Positions 13,281 to 63,939 of a stretch of DNA of 64,000 nt are shown piece by piece (position 1 is the first letter of the stretch; each line of letters begins with the position of its first letter). Source of the stretch: Gigantopelta aegis (Eukaryota > Mollusca > Gastropoda > Neomphalida > Peltospiridae). The stretch covers positions 2,958,293 to 3,022,292 of the forward strand of contig NC_054699.1 in the NCBI RefSeq assembly GCF_016097555.1, given 5' to 3'. A program made the position numbers and the translations under genes. The notes below the pieces were generated by a model. That model was not told where the DNA came from and made no database searches. It saw only the letters and a list, made by a program, of their open reading frames with translations.

Positions 13281-13673
13281 AATTTTGTAATCATCTACTC
13301 ACCCTTGGTTTAAAGTTAAACAACATTTATTGTCGTTCTCTTTGCGGTTTGAGCCTCTCCCTACATTTAACAATAGGAATATTTTACAAGCAATAAAATA
13401 AAACATAAATTGTTTCAAATTTACTAACAAAGAGGGGAAATAGAAGGAAGGAAAGGTAAAGAAGTTATTATTACCTTTAAGCATTTTACTTTATTTGGAA
13501 TTAGATGTCAGAGGAGACAGAGAATGTGACTGGTTAATTAAAATTATTTAGAATTAGATGTCAGAAGAGAGAGAATGCGACTAGTTAACTGATCTCAAAA
13601 GTTTTATATTTATAATGAAGTTCTGGACAGATTTGACTAAGCATTATTTTCTAGGAGAGTAAGGTTTACTCAC

Positions 13674-14290
13674 CCTTCTGATTCTTGGTGCAGCTTGCCT
13701 ATTTTGGGTTCTTTGGGTGACTTCTCCCCTTCCATCCTCAACAGCGGACCCATCCCTTCGCCCGTGTGTTTGGCAGCCACCTCGCTCCCGGCCTGGTCCA
13801 GCTTCACTGGGGGCGGCGTCAACGGCGCTGCGTTCGTGTTGCTGATCAGGTTGTTCACCGTCCCACGATTCCTCTCGGCATATTCCTCCGCCTCTGACCC
13901 CTTCACCTTCGGGGCGGGCTGTTCCTCCACCGCCAAACTCCCGTAGTTGTCGATCAGGTTCTTCATCTCGCCCCCTTTGTTGTTGTCCGCGATCTCGGCC
14001 GCGTCCGACGTCACGCCCCGGGGGTGGAGCTGTCTTTCGGGGACAGGGTCAGGGTAACCTCCTATGATGTCAGTCATCGAGCCTTTGTTCGTTTCAGCGA
14101 TCTGTTTCGCCTCCTCCGACCTGACCCGAGCGCCAGGTCGCGGGGAGTTGTAGTTGTTGATGTTGTCAGAGTAGTCGAACCACCTCTCCATGCCGCCACG
14201 GTTTCGTTCCGCATAGCTCAGGGCCTCGGGTTTCACACGGGGGTGGGGACGGGGGGAGGGCACGTATTCAGCATCTCCATTCACAGACAT
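13674..14290 (-). CDS. Repeat protein 1, exon 1 (N-terminus)
   Basis: First coding exon of a minus-strand gene; its protein continues in 7607-7443 and 6550-6388, for 314 residues in all. The ATG at 14290-14288 has CCGCC just before it, no upstream acceptor adjoins it, and the frame is open to a donor GTGAGT after 13674. The 205 residues here hold five degenerate repeats of ~37 residues: PRVKPEALSYAERNRGGM (residues ~14-31), ARVRSEEAKQIAETNKGSM, SDAAEIADNNKGGEM, GSEAEEYAERNRGTV and a diverged GSEVAAKHTGEGM. Each ends in a short hydrophobic block such as MKNLIDNYG. The protein is rich in Pro, Glu, Lys, Asn and Gly, with no signal peptide or membrane segment, so it is probably cytosolic and largely disordered. 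GC content is clearly higher than the flanks. A paralog lies at 33474-34445. I do not recognise the family and assign no function. Confidence 0.88.
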
Positions 14291-14403
14291 GGCGGATGAA
14301 GTGATGTAGCGTTTTTTACAGTGTTGGAAAATAAGATTATCTCGGGAGTTATTTATTGTGGAAAATCAACCATGTCCCTCTACTGTCTTCTGTGTTTACA
14401 ATA

Positions 14404-24504: not shown

Positions 24505-26004
24505 TACTCTTCAAAAGAAGAAACGCAAAACCACATTGTCGTAACATTTGGAGAATTGATTTAATTATTGAATGGTGAGTCCGATAATTACCAAATGTTG
24601 CAGGATTGTTCACAATTCACTCTAGTCCATTGTGAGTAAGTGATAGGACACACCACCAAGGTCACGGTCATCTGGAGTCAATACCGGGTGTGGCCTCCGC
24701 GTGTGTTGACAACTGCCTGGCACCGCCTGCCCATTGAAGCAACCAGAGTACGGATGACGTCCCGGGGGATGGTGGCCCACTCGGCCTGCAAGGCTGCTGC
24801 CAGCTCGGGCAGGGTCTGGGGCTGTGGTTGTCGCTGTCGGAGGCGTCGGTCCAACTCGTCCCATAGATTCTCAATTGGGTTTAAATCCGGTGATGTCGAT
24901 GGCCAAGGAAGGACATTAATGTTGTTGTTCTGTAGGAAAGCCGTTGTGAGACGTGCTGTGTGAGGCCTGGCGTTGTCATGTTGGAACACTGCGTTGGCGT
25001 TGGCCATAACTGGAACGATGTGTGGCCGGAGGATCTGGTCAATGTAGCCCTGTGCATTCAGGTTGCCCTGCACGTGGACCAGGTCAGTTCTGCCAGTGTG
25101 TGAGATGGCTGCCCACACCATGACACTACCCCCGCCGAATCTGTCCCCACTTCCTGCACGCAGTTTGCCGCATAACGTTCACCACGACGCCTATACACGC
25201 GACATCTTCCATCATGACGTCGGAGCAGAAATCGGGACTCGTCACTGAACCACACCTGTCTCCATCGCAGTTGAGGCCATTGTCGATGAATCTGGCACCA
25301 CTGCAGTCGGAGTCGACGGTGTTGTGGTGTTAAGATGACACCTCGAACTGGACGTCTGGCACGAATTCCTACCTCACGTAGGCGGTTCCGTACGGTCTGG
25401 TCGGATATCCTGCGCAAACCTGGTATTGCTGCGGCTGTGGAGGTGGCAGTAGTCAATCGTTCCCGAAGGTGGCGTACCCGGATATAGCGGTCCTGCCCGG
25501 GGGTAGTAAGCCGTGGTCGACCGGATCTAGGGAGGTCACGTGTTGATCCATGTTGCTGGTAACGGTCCCACAGTCTGGAGATGGTGCTTGGGGACACATG
25601 GAATGCCCTGGCAACGGCCGTTCTGGATTCGCCTGCGTCTAGTCGGCCGATGGCATTGTTTCTCTGCGGTTCACTGAGACGTGGCATGTCCTGGATTGTC
25701 AACTGTCGGCCAGATACAGAGGCCAGGCAAGCGAACACCCTGCACTTTTATACTGTCGGTGTTCATGTTGCACGTGCAGACAACGCACGTGCAGTGGTGA
25801 CATGGTTTGCACGTGGCTGCGTTTTTGCGAATATTCACATTTTGGAACTTTATTGTACAGTAGCTGCGTTTTATCGAATGTAACCGTGGGAATGTGTTTG
25901 GGACATGCAATGACCTTATATTCACAAAGCATGAACCGGTAGGAAACATAAAATCGGAGTTATAACCCATTTGTACCCTTTTGCGTTTCTTTTTTTGAAG
26001 AGTA
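24505..26004 (-). mobile_element. Tc1-type DNA transposon, complete ends
   Basis: Terminal inverted repeats of ~27 bp begin TACTCTTCAAAAGAAGAAAC at the left; the right end read inward is TACTCTTCAAAAAAAGAAAC. Both are flanked by TA, the mariner/Tc1 target duplication. The 1500-bp length is typical. One transposase gene lies on the minus strand (25687-24678). It is inserted next to a SINE in a TA-rich stretch. Confidence 0.92.
24678..25687 (-). pseudogene. Tc1 transposase, one frameshift
   Basis: Cut-and-paste transposase that would bind the element's inverted repeats and move it into TA sites. The likely start is MPRLSEPQRNNAIGRLDAG at 25687. An N-terminal helix-turn-helix region follows (TAVARAFHVSPSTISRLWDR), with a GRPRLT AT-hook-like motif between the paired DNA-binding halves. 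The DDE catalytic domain has WFSDESRF, FQHDNARPHTA and DLNPIENLWDELDRR. There are 34 residues between the second Asp and the Glu (DD34E), which marks Tc1 rather than mariner (DD34D). The frame changes once, around 25121-25160, between ANCVQEV and MVWAAISHTGRT; otherwise the ~336 codons are open and in the usual size range. High GC and uninterrupted codons suggest recent arrival. Confidence 0.9.
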
Positions 26005-29000: not shown

Positions 29001-30188
29001 GATGATCATTTTTACTTGATAAATTTAAACTTTAGTGACTTGCTGAAACTGGCTGTATTGATGATGGCTTGATTTTAGTTTTAATTCAGCAAAACTGATC
29101 ATGCAGTGGATGTTACCCAAGGTTGCACTTAAGATTGGTGAGGTTTATTGACATATTTTGCAAATGCTTCTTGAATTTACTGACTGTACCTTTGGTTCTT
29201 TTAAACACACTGTTAAATACATGTTTTTTCTGGTGAACTGGCATGTTTTCTTCCTATATTTAAAGTAGCCCTCTGCCTGTAAAAATATAGTAATTCCACG
29301 ATTTTCAAGCTTGGAAAATAACATTTGCAAATTACACAACTTCCCAGGAATTCCATGACTTGTAAGAACCTTTGATGAATCTCAATATTGTTGGAGGTTT
29401 CAAACAAGGATGGCAAACCTTTAAAACATACACCGATCAAACAACAAATCTGAAACAAAATGCATGTGCAGTCTTCACTATGAACAAAATCATACGAGTT
29501 TCAAATGAAATCCATTAAAACTTCGATTAAAAGGTGATCAATTTGTAGCCGGACGGTGAGAGATCGCTTCACAATTCTAATCTAAACCACTATTAAACAG
29601 TAGTTGCTGATCAATTATCAATTGACTAAAAATATTGCTAATAAAGATTTTCAAAACAAAATGTTCCTTGCTCGAGTATTTTGCCATTCAAAAGCCAGAC
29701 GGAGAATTGGACAGTTATGATCGCTCACTCAAACAACTCAATAGCAAAAACAGAATTGCTGCCTACCATATAGTAGGCAAAAATTTGTACTCTGATGCAC
29801 AAATAACCCCACGTAATAAATATGTTTAAAAATGTTGATTATTATAATTTATAGAATTCACCAATAACAAATACTTCACATGTATGAAGTACTGTAAAAT
29901 ACTTTATTTTCACGATTTGATGAAAATGAGTCAGTTTGCTAGGATTTATTTTCGCAAATCCCCATCCCTTCCCCCAATTAAAAAGACTAAGTACAGGCAC
30001 TGGTATCAATAATTTGGATGTTTATTGTTTACAAAATACTGTAAACTTACACAAGGTGCTTAGGCTACCGTATGCGCTTTTTCGTAATCCTCAAACTTGT
30101 TATAAAAAACGAACCCGAAAACAAAACGAAACTTGATGGCGCAATGCTAGATCAAGTTTGATTTAAACAATATTTATTACTGTCAAAA
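26005..30188. other. Long gene-free stretch
   Basis: About 4.2 kb without a supported gene. At 26160-26215 there is a weak forward SINE scrap (AACTGGTACATCAAAGGCCATGG). A-rich and T-rich runs are frequent. The only splice-like object is a short open frame around 28529-28617 followed by GTAAGT. It could be a 5' untranslated exon of the gene at 33474, but nothing supports the link. Confidence 0.4.
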
Positions 30189-30240
30189 TGTAGTAGTGTT
30201 TGGATAAAGTGCTCCTACTGGCAGTAGCTAGTGGGAATTT

Positions 30241-30312
30241 CCCTATTAGCTCAGTTGGTAGAGTGCTGGGTTCTCACACTGAGAGTCTGTGGTTCGAATC
30301 CCCTCAGTAGAG
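30241..30312 (+). ncRNA. tRNA-like Pol III unit in 5' LTR
   Basis: A box TTAGCTCAGTTGGTAGAG and B box GGTTCGAATCC have the spacing of a tRNA gene. The first seven bases CCCTATT pair at six positions with AGTAGAG at the 3' side, as in an acceptor stem. A T5 run (30318-30322) follows as a Pol III terminator. Because it is embedded in an LTR and repeated, I read it as an internal promoter/tRNA-derived module rather than a working tRNA gene. A genuine tRNA cannot be excluded; I could not settle an anticodon because the anticodon stem is irregular. Confidence 0.6.
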
Positions 30313-30512
30313 GTTGATTTTTCTGTTACATTTGGAGCCGACATAGGGACTGGGTGTGTTCTTAACACAAGAATACAATTATAACCCAGTCAGGACCCGT
30401 AACAGTTCACCTGCCCGTGGCCCACAGCTCTGGGACGTAGCTTCACTTGAGGGGGGAATATGTAGTAGTGTTTGGATAAAATGCTCCTACTGGCTGTAGC
30501 TAGTGGGAATTT

Positions 30513-30580
30513 CCCTATTAGCTCAGTTGGTAGAGCGCTGGACTCGCTGGAGTCTGTGGTTCGAATCCCCTCAGTGGAGG
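30513..30580 (+). ncRNA. tRNA-like Pol III unit in 3' LTR
   Basis: Second copy of the tRNA-like unit. A box TTAGCTCAGTTGGTAGAGC and B box GGTTCGAATCC are intact, an anticodon-arm-like hairpin GGACTCGCTGGAGTCT lies between them, and T5 (30585-30589) terminates it. It is four bases shorter than the copy in the 5' LTR. Confidence 0.6.
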
Positions 30581-30602
30581 TTGATTTTTCTGTTACAAAA
30601 AT

Positions 30603-33436: not shown

Positions 33437-33444
33437 ATCTATAT

Positions 33445-33469
33445 CATATTCTTTTCTTTTTTCCCCCAG
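33445..33469 (+). other. 3' splice site before repeat protein 2
   Basis: The run TTCTTTTCTTTTTTCCCCCAG ends four bases before the ATG. It is a strong polypyrimidine tract and AG. Reading AAC TAT GGT in the other frame meets a stop at once, so the upstream exon is most likely untranslated. I could not locate it. Confidence 0.75.
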
Positions 33470-33473
33470 AACT

Positions 33474-34445
33474 ATGGTTGCAGATAAAGCAGCTCCTTAC
33501 CCAGGGTATGACCCGACAGGATCTTACAGAACTCCACGACCAGCAGCTCGTGTTAAACCAGAAGCAGAGGAGAACGCCAGGAAACACAAAGGATGCATCA
33601 ACCTGTTTGATGCCAACAACCCTGGTCCTCCTCAACCTCCTCCACCAGAGCCAAAATGTCCCTCGGACAGTGCAAGACGCAACTATGAACTTGGAAGGTC
33701 AGGAAACGTGGGTTCCTTGTTATCACAAGGACAGTCACAGTCACATTCATCAGCAGTGGACTACAGTCCGGCGCCGAGAGTCAAACCTGAAGCCGAGGAG
33801 ATTGCAGAAGCCAATAAGGGCAAAGGAATAGCTAATCTCTTCAGTAACTATGGACATCTCCCTCCCTCCAGTCGACCTCCCGGCCGAGTTAAAGATGAAG
33901 GGTCGGTCAGTGCTTCCTTGGACCTTGGAGGAAGGATGAACAGTTTGTTGCATAACCCAAAGGAGATTCCAGAGTCTCCGAAACCTCAACCGCGGATAAA
34001 ACTGGAAGGCTCTCAGAATGCTTCACTGGGTGCTGGTGCACAGATGGGGAAGGTGATGGGCAGGTACGGAGAAACCCCACGTTCTACTAGAGGTGTTCCT
34101 CGCGTCAAACCAGAAGCAGCAGACATTGCAGAGCTGGACAAGGGTAAACGGGTAAACACTCTGTTCCAAAACTACGGGAAGCAACCGTCATCTGGACGTC
34201 CGGAGCCACGGGTAAAAGCTGAAGGATCCGAGCAGGCGAATCTCGATAAAGGAGGCAGAATGTCTCGACTGATGCATGAAGGTGACCGTCTGCCCAGTGA
34301 CCCCAAACCACCACCGCGGGCCGCGTCTGCTTCTGGACATCGCAATATTAAAAAGAACAGAGGAACCATCAGCCAGTTGTTTAGCGAGGCATCAAAATGG
34401 CAGGTTGTTCAAAAGCCTGGTATCAGAGGCACCAAAGTTACCTGA
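33474..34445 (+). CDS. Repeat protein 2 (PRVKPEA-type ~37-residue repeats)
   Basis: Single-exon coding region of 323 residues, paralogous to the three-exon gene at 14290-6388. The ATG at 33474 follows the splice acceptor by four bases. About eight repeats can be laid out: ARVKPEAEENARKHKG, a diverged SDSARRNYELGRSGNV, PRVKPEAEEIAEANKGKGI, GRVKDEGSVSASLDLGGRM, PRIKLEGSQNASLGAGAQM, PRVKPEAADIAELDKGKRV, PRVKAEGSEQANLDKGGRM and a final HRNIKKNRGTI. Each is followed by a hydrophobic cap (IANLFSNYG, VNTLFQNYG, MSRLMHEG) and a Pro/Ser linker. Two sub-types alternate: KPEA...KG and K.EGS...GGRM. It is basic and hydrophilic, with no signal peptide or membrane span. I do not recognise a named family; a scaffold-like or filament-binding role would be a guess. 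Confidence 0.9.
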   Translation: MVADKAAPYPGYDPTGSYRTPRPAARVKPEAEENARKHKGCINLFDANNPGPPQPPPPEPKCPSDSARRNYELGRSGNVGSLLSQGQSQSHSSAVDYSPAPRVKPEAEEIAEANKGKGIANLFSNYGHLPPSSRPPGRVKDEGSVSASLDLGGRMNSLLHNPKEIPESPKPQPRIKLEGSQNASLGAGAQMGKVMGRYGETPRSTRGVPRVKPEAADIAELDKGKRVNTLFQNYGKQPSSGRPEPRVKAEGSEQANLDKGGRMSRLMHEGDRLPSDPKPPPRAASASGHRNIKKNRGTISQLFSEASKWQVVQKPGIRGTKVT

Positions 34446-50589: not shown

Positions 50590-50872
50590 ACTATGATTTC
50601 TATTACAAAGAGACACCCCCACACCCCATGCCCCAGTCAAAACTACACGTTGTTTCCATTACAAAGAGACCCCCCCCCACCCCACCCCACCCACCCATGC
50701 GCCAGTCAAAACTACACATTATTTCTATTACAAAGAGACACCCCACCCCCCATACCCCAGTCAAAACTACACATTATTTCTATTACAAAGAGACACCCCC
50801 ACACCCCATGCCCCGGTCAAAACTACACATTATTTCTATTACAAAGAGACCCCCTCCCACCCCCCCATTCCA
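50590..50872. repeat. Minisatellite, ~58-60 bp unit, five copies
   Basis: The unit AGTCAAAACTACACATTATT, TCTATTACAAAGAGACACCC and a C-rich run is repeated five times. The 152- and 90-codon frames over it reflect repetition. Confidence 0.92.
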
Positions 50873-54250: not shown

Positions 54251-54257
54251 ACAGGCT

Positions 54258-54495
54258 TTAAATTGCCGTCAGTGGTCCATTTCACTAACTGCAATTTTGT
54301 TTTTAAATTGCCGTCGGTGGTCCATTTCACTAACTGCAATTTTGTTTTTAAATTGCCGTCGGTGGTCCATTTCACTAACTGCAATTTTGTTTTTAAATTG
54401 CCGTCGGTGGTCCATTTCACTAACTGCAATTTTGTTTTTAAATTGCCGTCGGTGGTCCATTTCACTAACTGCAATTTTGTTTTTAAATTGCCGTG
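54258..54495. repeat. 45-bp minisatellite, five near-identical copies
   Basis: The unit AATTGCCGTCGGTGGTCCAT, TTCACTAACTGC and AATTTTGTTTTTA is repeated five times; all but the first and last are identical. Because 45 is a multiple of three, several frames stay open on both strands and look like repeat proteins. No codon bias, splice site or start context supports coding. Confidence 0.95.
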
Positions 54496-55160: not shown

Positions 55161-56467
55161 TACTACTCAAAAGAATTTAAGGGTCAAAAATGTATAACCA
55201 AATAAGTTTCAGAGTGTATTATATTGATGATGTAAACTACACCAAATTTTTTATTTATTGTTCCATATTTACAAAAACCCACAAATAAACGTCACTGTAT
55301 ACAAGAAAGTCACATGACATGCTGTCAAAGTTGAAGGTTGTCAAACATGGATTTTACACATTAGAACATTCGTTTAATAGTGTGTGAATCCACCCCTGGC
55401 GCGAATACACTCGACACATCGTTGCCTCATGCTGTTGATCAGACGTCTGAAGAATTCTTGGGGAATGGCCTGCCACTCTGCCATAAGAAGTTGACCCAGA
55501 TCATGAAGGATGGCCGGAGGGGCATGGTTATCCCGAACTCTCCTGCCTAATTCGTCCCAGGCGTGCTCTATTAGGGCCAAGTCAGGCGAATATGCTGGCC
55601 AATCCATCCTGGCGATACCTTGTTGTCTGAGAAAGTCCGTTACCACCCTGGTGCGGTGGGGTCTGGCATTGTCATCCTGCAGAACTGCCCCGCCGCCAAT
55701 CTGCTGAAGGCCTGGGAGAACCAACGGCCGGATAATCTCATTCAGATAGCGGATTCCATTCAGATTGCCATCCACCACATAGAGGGGGGTCCTGTGGTGG
55801 ATAGAGATGCCGCCCCACACCATGACGCTGCCACCACCGAACCGGTGACGTTGTCTAACGTTAACGTCAGCGAAGCGCTCCCCAGGACGTCTGTAGACAC
55901 GAACCCGACCGTCATTGAACTGGAGACTAAACCTGGACTCATCAGTGAACATTACTCGACCCCACTGAACACGTTGCCACCGCAGATGAAGTGTGCACCA
56001 GTGACGTCTGGCCGTTCTGTGACGTGGTAGGAGTGGTGGTCGAACAGCCTGGCAACGGCAGCGTAGATTATTGGCTCTCAGACGATTACGTATGGTTTGA
56101 TCAGACACTCGAGTTCCAGTCGCAGTCCGCAGATTGTCACGTAATTATACGGAAATTCTGCATTGGGAACATGGAATACACATGCAAAGCGTGCAAATGA
56201 AGCGCTTTGTGAAAAAGCAAGTTATGGGCATTTAGCAGACCTTTCGCTTTCGCCCTAATTTATGTGCAAATGTAAGCATGTTTTCGCCATTAGAACTAGT
56301 CGACAGTGTCAATGACAGTGGATTTTAATTCATTTATGGGTTGCTTAGACCCACCTTCGTCAAAATGGTACAATACCATGCGTGACATTATGGTCTAGCT
56401 AATATAATTGACATTCAGAAAATAATGTCGAAAATATCGTCTGACCCTTAAATTCTTTTGAGTAGCA
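55161..56467 (-). mobile_element. Second Tc1-type transposon, 5' part of gene deleted
   Basis: The inverted ends are TACTACTCAAAAGAATTTAA and, inward from the right, TGCTACTCAAAAGAATTTAA, each followed by GGGTCA and bordered by TA. At 1307 bp it is about 200-300 bp shorter than usual. It belongs to a different Tc1 lineage from the element at 24505-26004: the ends and the transposase sequence differ. Confidence 0.9.
55374..56108 (-). pseudogene. Tc1 transposase, N-terminal domain missing
   Basis: An uninterrupted 244-codon frame carries SDQTIRNRLRANNLR (end of the second DNA-binding helix unit), then the full DDE domain: VMFTDESRFSLQF, GGGSVMVWGGIS, LQDDNARPHRTR and YSPDLALIEHAWDELGRR. There are 34 residues between the second Asp and the Glu. 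About 90-100 N-terminal residues found in full-length Tc1 transposases, including the first helix-turn-helix, are absent. Only ~360 bp remain up to the right end, so they were lost by an internal deletion. The catalytic residues are intact, but without the DNA-binding half it should not act on its ends. Confidence 0.88.
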
Positions 56468-57069: not shown

Positions 57070-57538
57070 GCTTTAACTCTCTCTCTCTCTCTCTCTCTCT
57101 CCTGTCTCTCTCTTCCTGTCACTCTCTCTCTCTTTCTACCCCTCCCTCTCTCTCTCTCTTCTAACTCTCTCTCCCATCTCTCTTCTAACTCTCTCTCCCA
57201 TCTCTCTTCTAACTCTCTCTTCTCACTCTCCCATCTCTCTTCTAACTATCCTCCCTCTCTCTCTCTATCTCCCATCTCTCATCTAACTCTCTCCTCCCTC
57301 TCTCATCTCTTTCGCTCTCTTCTCACTCTCCCATCTCTCTTCTAACTCTCTCCTCCCTCCCTCTCTCTCTCTCTTTCCCATCTCTCTTCTAACTCTCTCC
57401 TCCCTTCCTCTCTCTCTCTCTCCCCCATCTCTCTTCTAACTCTCTCTTCCCTCCCTCTCTCTCCCATCTCTCTTATAACTCTCTCCTCCCTCCCTCCCTC
57501 TCTCTCCCATCTCTCTTCTAATTCTCTCCTCCCTCCCT

Positions 57539-57576
<38 letters not shown>

Positions 57577-57785
57577 TCTCTTCTAACTCTCCTTCCTCTC
57601 CTCTCTTCTAACTGTCCTCTCTCTCTCCTTTCTCACTCTCCCATATCTCCCTCCTCTCTCGCTCTCTGTCTCTCATCTCTCTTCTAACTCTCTCCTCTCT
57701 CTCTTCTCACTCTCCCATCTCTCCTCCCTCCTCTCTCTCTCTTTCTCTCTCTCCCTCCTCTTTTCTCACTCTCCCATCTCTCCTC

Positions 57786-57823
<38 letters not shown>

Positions 57824-58028
57824 ACTCTCCTCTCTCTCTCTCTTCTAACTCTCCTCTCTCTCTCCTTTCTCACTCTCCCATATCTCCCTCCTCTCTCTCT
57901 CTTCTCTCTCGCTCTCTGTCTCTCTTCTAACTCTCTCCTCTCTCCTCCGCTCTCTCCCTCTCTCCATCTCCCATCTCTCCTATCTCCCCCTCCTTCTCCT
58001 CTTCTCTCTCTCTCTCTCTCTATCTCTC

Positions 58029-58096
<68 letters not shown>

Positions 58097-58098
58097 CC
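57070..58098. repeat. ~1-kb polypyrimidine (CT-rich) tract
   Basis: An almost pure pyrimidine strand built from (CT)n runs and a loose ~30-50 bp theme (CTCTCCCATCTCTCTTCTAA), with isolated A and G. Open frames of 77-167 codons over it, full of Arg-Glu, are artefacts. Confidence 0.95.
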
Positions 58099-58112
58099 CA
58101 CCTTACCACAAA

Positions 58113-58618
58113 TTGTGGTACGTCCCACACCCTCAGATGAATGCTCTATCACTGAGCTACATCCCACACCCTCAGATGAATGCTCTATCACTGAGCTACA
58201 TCCCACACCCTCAGATGAATGTTCTATCACTGAGCTACATCTCACACCCTCAGATGAATGCTCTATCACTGAGCTACATCCACCACACCCTCTCTATCAT
58301 GATGACAGTGCTCTATCACTGAGCTACATCATCTCACACACCCTCAGATGAATGCTCTATCACTGAGCTACATCTCACACCCTCAGATGAATGCTCTATC
58401 ACTGAGCTACATCCCACACCCTCAGATGAATGCTCTATCACTGAGCTACATCCCACACCCTCAGATGAATGCTCTATCACTGAGCTACATCCCACACCCT
58501 CAGATGAATGCTCTATCACTGAGCTACATCCCACACCCTCAGATGAATGCTCTATCACTGAGCTACATCCCACACCCTCAGATGAATGCTCTATCACTGA
58601 GCTACATCTCACACCCTC
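58113..58618 (-). repeat. 39-bp minisatellite built from a tRNA/SINE A-box segment
   Basis: About twelve copies of a unit. On the minus strand each reads GGGATGTAGCTCAGTGATAG, AGCATTCATCTGAGGGTGT. The first half is the 5' half of a tRNA (A box TAGCTCAGTGATAGAGC) and matches the head of the SINEs in this window (reverse-strand CTTTACCACTGGGCTACGTCC). One unit around 58285-58335 is disturbed. No B box is present. Confidence 0.9.
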
Positions 58619-58820
58619 AGGACAAAAATAAACATGTACTGTTACACTGGGCTACAACATTTTATTCTTTGTGTATACAATTTTATACTATTTTAATATT
58701 GCAGTTGAACTTATTGTAAACATCTCACCTAAAAAAACAAGTCCCATAAATTTAAAAAGAACAGTTACTGTACAGATTCATTTTGATCTGTCTGTGAATT
58801 ATGTTATGTCGTTTGTTATA
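58619..58820. other. Non-coding stretch
   Basis: Nothing recognised. Confidence 0.4.
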
Positions 58821-61237: not shown

Positions 61238-62058
61238 CACCTTGAAATCTGCATTACCTGTGTAGCAACACTTCCCGATAATGTCACTAACCCACCTTGA
61301 GGTCAGTATTACCTGTGTAGCAACACTTCCCGATAACGCCACTAACCCACCTTGAGGTCAGTATTACCTGTGTAGCAACACTTCCCGATAACGCCACTAA
61401 CCCACCTTGAGGTCAGTATTACCTGTGTAGCAACACTTCCCGATAACGCCACTAACCCACCTTGAGGTCAGTATTACCTGTGTAGCAACACTTCCCGATA
61501 ACGCCACTAACTCTCACAGAAGCTTTAACTAGTGCTCTATAGTAATACAATTGATAATTTCCACTAGCCCACCTTGAGATCAGTATTACCTGTGTAGCGA
61601 CACTTCCCGATAACGCCATTCAGTATTACCTGTGTAGCGACACTTCCCGATAGCACCACTCGCCACCTTGAAATCAGTAACGCCACACTAACCCACCTTG
61701 AGGTCAGTATTACCTGGGTAGCGACACTTCCCGATAACGCCACTAGCCCACCTTGAGGTCAGTATTACCTGTGTAGCGACACTTCCCGATAGCGCCACTA
61801 GCCCACCTTGAGGTCAGTATTACCTGTGTAGCAACACTTCCCGATAGCGCGACTAGCCCCCCTTGAGGTCAGTATTACCTGTGTAGCAACACTTCCCGAT
61901 AGCGCCACTAGCCCACCTTGAGGTCAGTATTACCTGTGTAGCGACACTTCCCGATAACGCCACTAGCCCCCCTTGAGGTCAGTATTACCTGTGTAGCGAC
62001 ACTAGTACTTCAACGATAACGCATCCGAAGCACTAGCCCACCTTGAGGTCAGTATTAC
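61238..62058 (-). repeat. 55-bp array made of a DOCK exon 3' end plus its splice donor
   Basis: About 14 units, several of them exactly 55 bp apart (61291, 61346, 61401, 61456). On the minus strand each reads CAAGGTGGGCTAGTGGCG, TTATCGGGAAGTGTCGCTAC, ACAG then GTAATACTGACCT. This is the same sequence that ends the DOCK exon at 62059 (SGSVATQ-like codons then donor GTAATA). In the frame leading into the next exon it reads GLVALSGSVATQ, matching the LQGSVSVQ that precedes VNAGP in other DOCKs. Array copies near 61500-61700 are rearranged. Confidence 0.88.
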
Positions 62059-62286
62059 CTGTGTAGCGACACTTTTCCCGATAGCGCGAGCTGCCCACCT
62101 TGATGAGCCCAGCGAACCGTGGCGACTGAGGTACCTCGTGGAATGTCGGACACTTTCTTCTGAGCGCGACTTTCTCATCGCCATGGCCACCTCGATGGGC
62201 TGCAGTATCATCTCCTTCCCGATGTCGCGCTAGCCACATCCGCTTCTTCACATACGGGAATAGTGCGAATAGCTTTTGAAACAAAC
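62059..62286 (-). CDS. DOCK (zizimin-type) exon with disturbed frame
   Basis: Contains the conserved DOCK strings LFPYVKKRM, EMILQPIEVAM, QKKVSDI and, at its end, a GSVATQ-like segment before donor GTAATA. The matching family order is SHLFPYVKKR, LNPIEVA, KKVxEL, LQGSVSV. These strings fall in different frames, so the sequence as given cannot encode one continuous segment: frame changes are needed before LFPYV, after KKRM, after PIEVAM, after VSDI and near the end. The flanking exons are intact and in phase, which argues for assembly or consensus errors beside the 55-bp array rather than a dead gene. The acceptor is either ACAG before 62286 or AAAG before 62272. Confidence 0.75.
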
Positions 62287-62349
62287 CTGTGTCAAGATAA
62301 CGCCCACTCATTTTAGGATGTTACCTTGAGATATTTTTTTAACCTCTAG

Positions 62350-62885
62350 CCCGGTTGAAATCAATTACTTTTTTTTCTCCCACAGGATTGAGGTCAGATT
62401 TTTTAGCGACTCCCGACAGGGTTGAAGATGTATAGATATCGTGGTGTCGACACTTTCTATAGCTGATATGTTTTTCCTCCCCACAGGGTTGAAAAGATAT
62501 TTTTTTCTCCAAATACGGGTTGAAGATAGACATTTTTCCTTCCAAAAGGTTGAAGGATGTATAGATATGTTTTTCTCCAGGTTGAAAATCTGTTTTTTTC
62601 TCCACAGGGTTAAAGATAGATATTTTTCTCCCACAGGGCTGAAGATGTATAGATATGTTTTTCTCCCACAGGGTTGAAAATAGATATTTTTTTCTCCCAA
62701 AGGGTTGAAGATAGATTTTTTCTCCCAAAGGGTTGAAGATGTATAGATATGTTTTTCTCCCACAGGGTTAAAAATAGATATTTTTTCTCCCAAAGGGCTG
62801 AAGATGTATAGATATTTTTTTCTCCCACAGGGTTGAACATAGATTTTTTTTTCCCCCAAAGGGCTGATGAGATATTTTTTCAAGA
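62350..62885. repeat. ~40-50 bp array, TTTTTCTCCCACAGGGTTGA unit
   Basis: About a dozen units of TTTTTCTCCCACAGGGTTGA and AGATGTATAGATATG with frequent small length changes. It is in a DOCK intron. The minus-strand 200-codon frame over it (KKYLFSTLWEK-like) is a by-product. The plus strand looks like a string of acceptors, but the host gene reads the other way. Confidence 0.9.
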
Positions 62886-62989
62886 TTGAAGATAGACACA
62901 AAACTCTCATGTCTCTCTTTTTCTCAGCTATTTTGCATTCATCAAGATATTTATTGTTTCTTAACATTTCGGTATTTTGGTATTTGCTT

Positions 62990-63728
62990 GGTATTGTAAA
63001 TCGGTATTGACATGATACCGATACCGGACGGTATATACGGTATACTGCCCAGCTCTACTTACTGTTAAAAATCGTACAGTAAATCAGTATTGACATGATA
63101 CTGATACCGGACGGTATATACGGTATACTGCCCAGCTCTACTTACTGTTAAAAATCGTACGGTAAATCAGTATTGACATGATACCGATACCGGACGGTAT
63201 ATACGGTATACTGCCCAGCTCTACTTACTGTTAAGAATCGTCCTCCATTTAAACTGCTGACTGATGTCGCCTCACGTCTTGCCGTCCTTCGTGAAGGGAG
63301 TCTCGTACATGATACCGATACCGGACGGTACATACGGTATACCGCCCAGCTCTACTTACTGTGAAGAATCGTACAGTAAATCGGTATTGACATGATACCA
63401 ATACCGGACGGTATATACGGTATACCGCCCAGCTCTACTTACTGTGAAGAATCATCCTCCATTTAAACTGCTGACTGATGTCGCCTCACGTCTTGGTATA
63501 CCGTTCCTTCGTGAAGGGAGTCTCGTACATGGATACCGATACCGGACGGTACATACGGTATACCGCCCAGCTCTACTTACTGTGAAGAATCGTACCTCCT
63601 CACATTTAAACTGCCGGACTGATTGGTTGCCCATTCACTTACGCATCTTGCCATCCTTCGTGAATGGCGTCTCATACATGATACCAATATCGGACGGTAT
63701 ATACAGTATACCGCCCTGCTCTACTTAC
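62990..63728 (-). repeat. Array of partial DOCK exon copies, each with a splice donor
   Basis: Seven occurrences of the minus-strand donor phrase AACAGTAAGTAGAGCTGGGC (near 63054, 63138, 63221, 63352, 63435, 63572 and 63720, the last being the real donor, with variants). They are separated by GATACCGATACCGGACGGTA-type sequence. Three units (63230-63310, 63440-63533, 63582-63678) also carry 75-95 bp of the exon's 3' end: ATGTACGAGACTCCCTTCAC, AAGGACGGCAAGAC and GACATCAGTCAGCAG. These copies are damaged and not open. Confidence 0.88.
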
Positions 63729-63939
63729 TGTTAAGAATCGTCCTCCGTTTACACTGCTGACTGATGTCGCCTCGTGTCTTGCCGTCCTTCGTGAATGGCG
63801 TCTCGTACATGAAGCAGCGGATGTTGTTGTTCCTCTCGAAGTCCGTCAGTCTCTCCAAGTTATCCTTGTCGTCGAAGTAGGGAATCACGTGGGTGATCTG
63901 GATGTGGGCAAACTTCGGATCCAGCTCACTCGGGTTCAC
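63729..63939 (-). CDS. DOCK (zizimin-type) exon, first in window
   Basis: Encodes [60 protein letters not shown] and [10 protein letters not shown], between an acceptor TTGCACCCAG and a donor GTAAGT (minus strand). [18 protein letters not shown] and QCKRRTIL are signature strings of DHR2 domains, and the [12 protein letters not shown] wording is closest to the DOCK9/10/11 (zizimin, class D) group, which mainly act on Cdc42, DOCK10 also on Rac. The exon ends in phase 1. Upstream exons lie beyond the right edge, so only the last ~200 residues of what is usually a ~2000-residue protein are visible. Confidence 0.93.

Follow-up and report, generated by a model that had tools for sequence, protein, structure and literature searches.

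The stretch of Gigantopelta aegis DNA analysed here, 64 kb long and referred to below as the window, contains a complete copy of a TRIM, a miniature LTR retrotransposon, on the plus strand at positions 30189–30597, recognised both by direct reading and by a repeat search. In order, the 409-bp unit consists of a first LTR, a 2-nt spacer (TT), a primer binding site (PBS), a hairpin, a purine tract and a second LTR, all in the same orientation. Sequence reading and the repeat search place the 5′ LTR (142 bp) at 30189–30330 and the 3′ LTR (137 bp) at 30461–30597. Both have TG..CA ends, starting with TGTAG and ending with GTTACA, and they diverge at 6.6% of aligned positions, with a further length difference of 5 nt. 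The internal region between them (130 bp, 30331–30460) is non-coding, as read in this copy and in the internal regions of the family. It begins with the spacer and the PBS (30333–30351), which in this copy is complementary to tRNA-Lys(TTT) at 18 of 19 nt when matched to tRNA-Lys genes. A polypurine tract (PPT), GAGGGGGGA, lies ahead of the second LTR at 30449–30457 and was identified by sequence reading and from the tails of 45 internal regions. AAAA stands directly on each side of the element (30185–30188 and 30598–30601), forming a 4-bp target site duplication that is seen both by reading the sequence and in the flank analysis (row L048), and that was missing from the features listed in the earlier note on this DNA.

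Each LTR also holds the elements of a tRNA-type Pol III promoter. Pattern matching locates the A box of the 5′ LTR (TAGCTCAGTTGG) at 30247–30258 and its B box (GGTTCGAATCC) at 30291–30301; the corresponding boxes of the 3′ LTR lie at 30519–30530 and 30558–30568. This combination of boxes at tRNA-like spacing occurs twice in the 64-kb window, both times within the element, and in none of 100 shuffled sequences. A run of five T residues (T5) resembling a Pol III terminator is read at 30318–30322, 8 nt before the end of the 5′ LTR, and its counterpart in the 3′ LTR (30585–30589) would form the 3′ end of the genomic RNA. Alignment of sampled LTRs further defines a TATA-like position at 30203–30208, which reads GATAAA in the window copy. 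The earlier note, made from the letters alone, had described a TRIM layout with TG..CA repeats, PBS, purine tract and non-coding interior, and an A box, a B box and a T5 in each repeat, and all of these features are present as described. Its near-complete acceptor stem was overstated: by eye, approximately 3–4 of 7 pairs form in the window copy, ARAGORN reports no tRNA in the 64-kb window, and at E ≤ 1 cmscan detects none between 29900 and 30900.

The hairpin that directly follows the PBS (30349–30390) has a predicted folding energy of −15.2 kcal/mol (z −4.0 against shuffles), and none of 200 shuffled sequences folds as well. Over 45 rows of family internal regions it is paired in 650 of 672 cells. 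No change affecting both sides of a pair was found among these 672 cells, leaving the structure without covariation support. The hairpin may possibly act as a packaging or dimer signal.

The window contains several other features. Two stretches encoding transposases of the Tc1/mariner type (Pfam DDE_3 and HTH_Tnp_Tc3_2) lie on the minus strand at 24678–25747 and 55374–56144, the former split over two overlapping frames. Open frames at 13670–14365 (minus strand) and 33438–34445 (plus strand) carry the same kind of repeated motif (RVKPEA...) and look like paralogous genes; neither has a Pfam match at 0.01. Tandem arrays and a long CT tract occupy 50683–50858, 54257–54494, 57077–58620 and 61238–63773, the arrays having periods of 56, 45, 39, 55, 83 and 214 bp, among others.

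The genome searched for further copies was that from which the window comes (1,149,253,464 bases in 5216 contigs, C1–C15 being chromosome-sized and C16–C20 5–8 kb long). The G. aegis genome, that of a neomphalid gastropod, has been described as 1.15 Gb in 15 pseudo-chromosomes (PMC7895826). A COX1 sequence located on C6 looks, by eye, like a common lophotrochozoan form and does not resemble that of mussels. The abalone marker egg lysin (PF01303) gave 0 matches in this genome, and the controls gave none either, so this search carries no information. As a separate observation on this assembly, its five matches to haemocyanin beta-sandwich domains all fall on C2783 and C5121, where misassembly or contamination is possible.

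With the full element as query, scoring 40 of 1984 first-look candidates yielded at least 45 matches at 90–100% identity, of which 43 are nearly full length, one starts at base 42 and one spans 46 bases. The LTR alone gave 2093 first-look candidates and the internal region alone 681, with 40 scored in each case. Patterns made from 25-base cores, allowing up to two mismatches, matched 1144 LTRs and 350 internal regions, while their reversed controls matched nothing; on known copies, these patterns recover 93 of 98 LTRs and 42 of 45 internal regions. The TRIM family is thus dispersed through its own genome in roughly a thousand pieces. The ratio of LTRs to internal regions in the core counts, approximately 3.2, exceeds the value of 2 expected for complete copies, which implies that solo LTRs exist. 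Some copies are joined in tandem arrays (L012, L035, L038 and L047), and on C5 four internal regions are spaced at 274 bp. Sampled copies that are complete and have both LTRs measure 409–419 bp. In 43 elements the two LTRs of a pair differ by a median of 2.8% (range 0–12.7%, two pairs identical), suggesting that the sampled family is fairly young, although the copies were drawn from the best matches to the window element and these figures are therefore biased rather than an unbiased age profile. The window copy lies above the sample median.

The LTRs of the family offer a view of how its promoter-like parts have been maintained. In 98 LTRs, the mean minority frequency per alignment column is 3.7%. 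The A box, at 0.7%, ranks first of 131 twelve-column stretches for conservation, while the region corresponding to the anticodon arm (30264–30281), at 8.6%, ranks 124th of 125 stretches of its length. Conservation is not unusual in the B box (2.2%, rank 53 of 132), the T5 (4.1%, 95 of 138) or the TATA position (2.0%, 56 of 137), and a U3 stretch without known boxes (30209–30240) is also conserved (1.6%, rank 10 of 111). Because this boxless stretch is conserved and the B box, T5 and TATA position are unremarkable, conservation alone fails to single out Pol III. The boxes themselves are widely retained, with an exact A box in 88 of the 98 LTRs, a B box of the form GGTTCRANTCC in 81 and a run of at least four T residues in 95.

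The tRNA-like part was compared with 12 tRNAs from the genome. Eleven of these give mean scores of 44–55 against 16–21 for the reversed control, and the remaining one, Arg-TCG, scores 24.5 against 14.2. Among the 12, the closest tRNA is Lys for 50 of the 98 LTRs, Thr for 37 and Arg for 11. The Rfam tRNA model finds 11 matches in 10 of 20 family loci, all within LTRs, in the sense direction and in the right register. These matches are weak (E 0.06–4.9), the best reaching 27.7 bits against a gathering score of 29. Among 55 loci, four have an LTR overlapped by an ARAGORN tRNA call (L019 with no isotype, L022 and L045 as Glu-CTC, and L109 as Ala-GGC), and one further call lies outside an LTR (L090). 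Since the A box is the most conserved part of the unit and the anticodon region nearly the most variable, it resembles a promoter rather than a tRNA gene; judged by its sequence, it is a decayed tRNA-derived promoter. The central claim of the earlier note, that both LTRs of a TRIM carry a tRNA-type Pol III promoter, is upheld at this level by the boxes and by the conservation of the A box. We read the element, with a probability of roughly 85%, as a TRIM of the Helenus/TRIMp3 kind, a non-autonomous LTR retrotransposon that would be transcribed by Pol III and mobilised by a helper, its insertion producing a 4-bp duplication.

Alternatively, a TATA promoter in the LTR could drive transcription of the same TRIM by Pol II, with the tRNA-like part a passenger from an inserted SINE that serves only as filler or R region. 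TRIMs are generally held to be Pol II elements (TRIMp2, PMC10886601), and 86 of the 98 sampled LTRs have TATAAA in their first 35 nt, roughly 30 nt upstream of where transcription is predicted to begin, yet the window copy has it in neither LTR. The well conserved U3 stretch at 30209–30240 (rank 10 of 111) would likewise suit a Pol II promoter, but a passenger leaves unexplained why the A box, the best conserved stretch of the LTR, sits beside a drifting anticodon region, and the T run of at least four that 95 of 98 LTRs have close to their end also speaks against it. On balance Pol II transcription appears unlikely, with a probability of about one quarter, and a promoter of the Pol III type remains preferred.

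The ends of the copies bear on how the family has spread. In the flank analysis, 80 loci were examined, and both outer ends were recognised in 53 rows, comprising 40 complete copies (including the window copy, L048), nine solo LTRs and four others; the remainder were partial or cut. Immediately beyond the TG..CA ends, the two flanks agree over at least 4 bp in 32 of the 40 complete copies, and in 29 the match is exactly 4 bp. The three with longer matches all lie in simple repeats. Among the eight complete copies without a 4-bp match, five have none, two have 3 bp and one has 2 bp. Solo LTRs show a flank match of at least 4 bp in six of nine cases, leaving three without, and the other rows in three of four, the failing row being L080, which was misparsed by the script. 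When flanks were paired across different rows as a control, 61 of 2756 pairs agreed (2.2%). The sets of 98 LTRs and 45 internal regions include neither L048 nor L080, and the window sequence replaces L048 there. The earlier note had looked to many copies of one LTR-PBS-PPT-LTR layout, to duplications of 4–6 bp and to solo LTRs for support, and all are found in the genome of the window (1144 LTR-core and 350 internal-core matches; among the 40 complete copies, 29 duplications of exactly 4 bp and 32 of 4 bp or more; nine solo LTRs in the flank sample).

Local copying of a tRNA gene, or a dimer of a tRNA-derived SINE, would explain why each repeat has a tRNA-like A box and B box and why family copies give weak Rfam tRNA matches. 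It is refuted by copies of uniform layout dispersed at hundreds of places, with exact 4-bp duplications, a PBS and a PPT, and the window yields no ordinary tRNA call, with ARAGORN calls overlapping LTRs in only 4 of 55 loci. The local duplication with a conserved anticodon that the earlier note had named as its refutation likewise does not agree with dispersed copies whose anticodon region is variable, and this reading is highly improbable. Spread by recombination of a satellite-like tandem repeat with units of approximately 272 bp, suggested by the four arrays and by the closely spaced internal regions on C5, has a negligible chance of being correct, given that 40 of the 53 sampled places with both ends recognised hold one LTR-internal-LTR unit each, that 32 of these 40 have a duplication to themselves, and that arrays L012 and L038 are each flanked by a single 4-bp duplication around the whole array.

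Retrotransposition of a TRIM, the reading favoured here, calls for a primer, and the PBS predicts the tRNA 3′ end CCCTAYGTCGGCT. A pattern for this end matches 34 places in the genome with at most one mismatch, and its reversed control matches none. Of these places, 20 were made into loci, and ARAGORN found tRNA-Lys(TTT) in 13 of them, at the matched place in 11; several of the matching genes lie on C4, about 1 kb apart. The reverse complement of the tRNA-Lys end with CCA added begins TGGAGCCGACGTAGGGACT. Compared with 19 nt of this sequence, the PBS is exact in 24 of 45 internal regions, has one mismatch in 18 (the window copy among them) and two mismatches in one, while the remaining two fail the comparison or are shifted. 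By sequence, the PBS suits the CCA-bearing 3′ end of a tRNA-Lys(TTT) that multiple genes of the same genome encode. Printed copies of these genes, examined by eye, have two acceptor-stem mispairs and U at the discriminator position, and their scores reach at most 65.6 bits, whereas the best tRNA-Lys scores 76.5, so some of them may be inactive. Clusters of this tRNA-Lys(TTT)-type variant were observed at C4:21775998–21783894 by ARAGORN, and at C9:423367–429206 and on C2902 by pattern and Rfam matches only.

Three loci carry what may be traces of the primer itself. At L120 (C1:185019), L123 (C3:43164807) and L138 (C5:32520478), LTRs of other families are followed by the PBS and then, by eye, by a 29–36-nt 3′ part of tRNA-Lys with CCA. 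These look like inserted reverse-transcription intermediates that retained a copy of the primer, and because they contain a copied-in tRNA-Lys continuation, they support priming by such a tRNA-Lys. A modified base at tRNA position 58 is expected to halt copying; the tRNA copy at these three loci extends past that position.

The PBS also leads to a candidate for the helper. Excluding the TRIM's own continuation, the PBS pattern occurs at 122 places with at most one mismatch, and its reversed control at none. Among 20 chosen from the places listed, the PBS is preceded by a TRIM LTR in six (L141, L148, L149, L151, L152 and L153), which are mutated, rearranged or hybrid copies, and by other sequence in 14, nine of which end in ..TACA-TT ahead of the PBS, like the TRIM. 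One LTR family, L156/L007, has the tail ..GTTACA-TT-PBS, the L007 copy ending in CTGTTACA-TT. Among the 41 places listed for it, same-strand LTR pairs lie 9.0 kb (C1), 11.2 kb (C6) and 8.9 kb (C4) apart, and the PBS adjoins the upstream LTR in all three. The two pairs at about 9 kb, C1:8023113–8032194 and C4:45971798–45980825, include partial LTR matches (query bases 1–81 for the second C1 member and 161–242 for both C4 members). This family of approximately 9–11 kb has the size of an autonomous element and is a candidate autonomous helper. Near the leader of L007 the longest frames are 81–101 aa, the longest of them of low complexity. In the sequence read, what the TRIM has in common with the candidate helper is confined to the LTR tail, the spacer and the tRNA-Lys PBS. 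Several other LTR families also carry this PBS, so that the assignment of the helper is not unique.

A hybrid locus, L149/L159, joins the two families. It consists of a TRIM LTR, 89% identical to that of the window copy, followed by the PBS and a leader like that of L007, to which it is 82% identical across an initial 236 nt that takes in the PBS and 91% identical across a later 174 nt. Its translation contains many stops and reveals no coding capacity near the leader. We read this single locus, covered from its TRIM LTR into the leader-like part, as a probable product of template switching between TRIM RNA and helper RNA, pointing to the two RNAs sharing one particle.

In the Pol III reading, the geometry of a type 2 promoter sets the start site relative to the A box. 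Pol III would begin in the 5′ LTR near 30230–30240, approximately 7–17 nt ahead of the A box. The TATAAA located about 30 nt upstream of this start in most sampled copies, though not in the window copy, may place TFIIIB or serve Pol II. The T5 of the 5′ LTR would be read through part of the time, and otherwise an RNA of only about 90 nt would result; read-through has to be assumed because this T5 should stop many Pol III transcripts before the PBS, which poses a sharp question about the route to full-length RNA. Transcription would end at the T5 of the 3′ LTR, giving an RNA of approximately 350 nt with an R region of about 85–90 nt and a U5 of just 8 nt. This RNA would be packaged by the proteins of an autonomous LTR retrotransposon using the same tRNA-Lys primer, probably a Gypsy-like one, a label chosen because animal Helenus elements share their PBS with Gypsy elements (PMC10886601) and because of the 4-bp duplication. 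Reverse transcription would start from the PBS and the second strand from the PPT, and the integrase of the helper would insert the TRIM DNA, producing the 4-bp duplication. A broader proposal, in which the family represents a gastropod Helenus lineage outside bivalves, the 9–11-kb family is its helper and the recombinant locus traces the co-packaging of Pol III RNA with Pol II helper RNA, is tentative, and we put it at somewhat less than an even chance.

Elements with comparable parts are known from other systems. tRNA-derived SINEs carry an A box, a B box and a T run, as the window element does; unlike them, the window element has LTRs, a PBS, a PPT and duplications fixed at 4 bp. A 5S promoter is of a different type from a tRNA-type promoter. 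Cassandra TRIMs resemble the window family in having a Pol III promoter and terminator inside their LTRs and in forming tandem arrays, but they are found in plants and their promoter is derived from 5S rRNA (PMC7215508). The biv-TRIM of bivalves is likewise a molluscan TRIM with tandem arrays and solo repeats, but has repeats of 202–218 bp, an internal region of 77–80 bp and no unambiguous PBS, and the available passages of its description do not mention a tRNA-like promoter (PMC6934838).

The closest counterpart is Helenus, a group of TRIMs with a tRNA-type promoter named in 2024 and reported from bivalves, fish, wasps and fungi (Kojima 2024, PMC10886601). The existence of molluscan Helenus elements removes the suggestion of the earlier note that a tRNA version in a mollusc would be a parallel invention. 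Like Helenus, the window family has a tRNA-like A box (TRGCY..YGG) and B box (GGTTC) in each LTR, a PBS to a tRNA 3′ end, a PPT, a non-coding interior, solo LTRs and tandem arrays. Its complete copies of 409–419 bp lie inside the published length range of 311–1263 bp, its target site duplications (exactly 4 bp in 29 of 40 complete copies) agree with the 4 bp of animal Helenus, and its tRNA-Lys primer is shared with some bivalve families (PMC10886601). The window family thus fits Helenus, to which it is assigned by these published features. A full-text literature search for Helenus TRIMs found only that paper, and the passages of the literature examined describe no gastropod TRIM, although Repbase may hold an entry for this species. 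Molluscan Helenus elements are listed, in the available text of the paper, only for pteriomorph bivalves, covering five bivalve orders; in contrast, the host of the window family is a gastropod, and its PBS fits a tRNA-Lys variant with discriminator U. The kind of element is therefore known, and what is new here is a gastropod as host, tRNA-Lys genes matching the PBS, the candidate helper family and one hybrid locus. Together, these extend the host range of TRIMs carrying a Pol III-type promoter to a gastropod, and they bring into one genome the pieces for testing the question left open by Kojima, namely what ties a TRIM to a helper with unrelated LTRs (PMC10886601).
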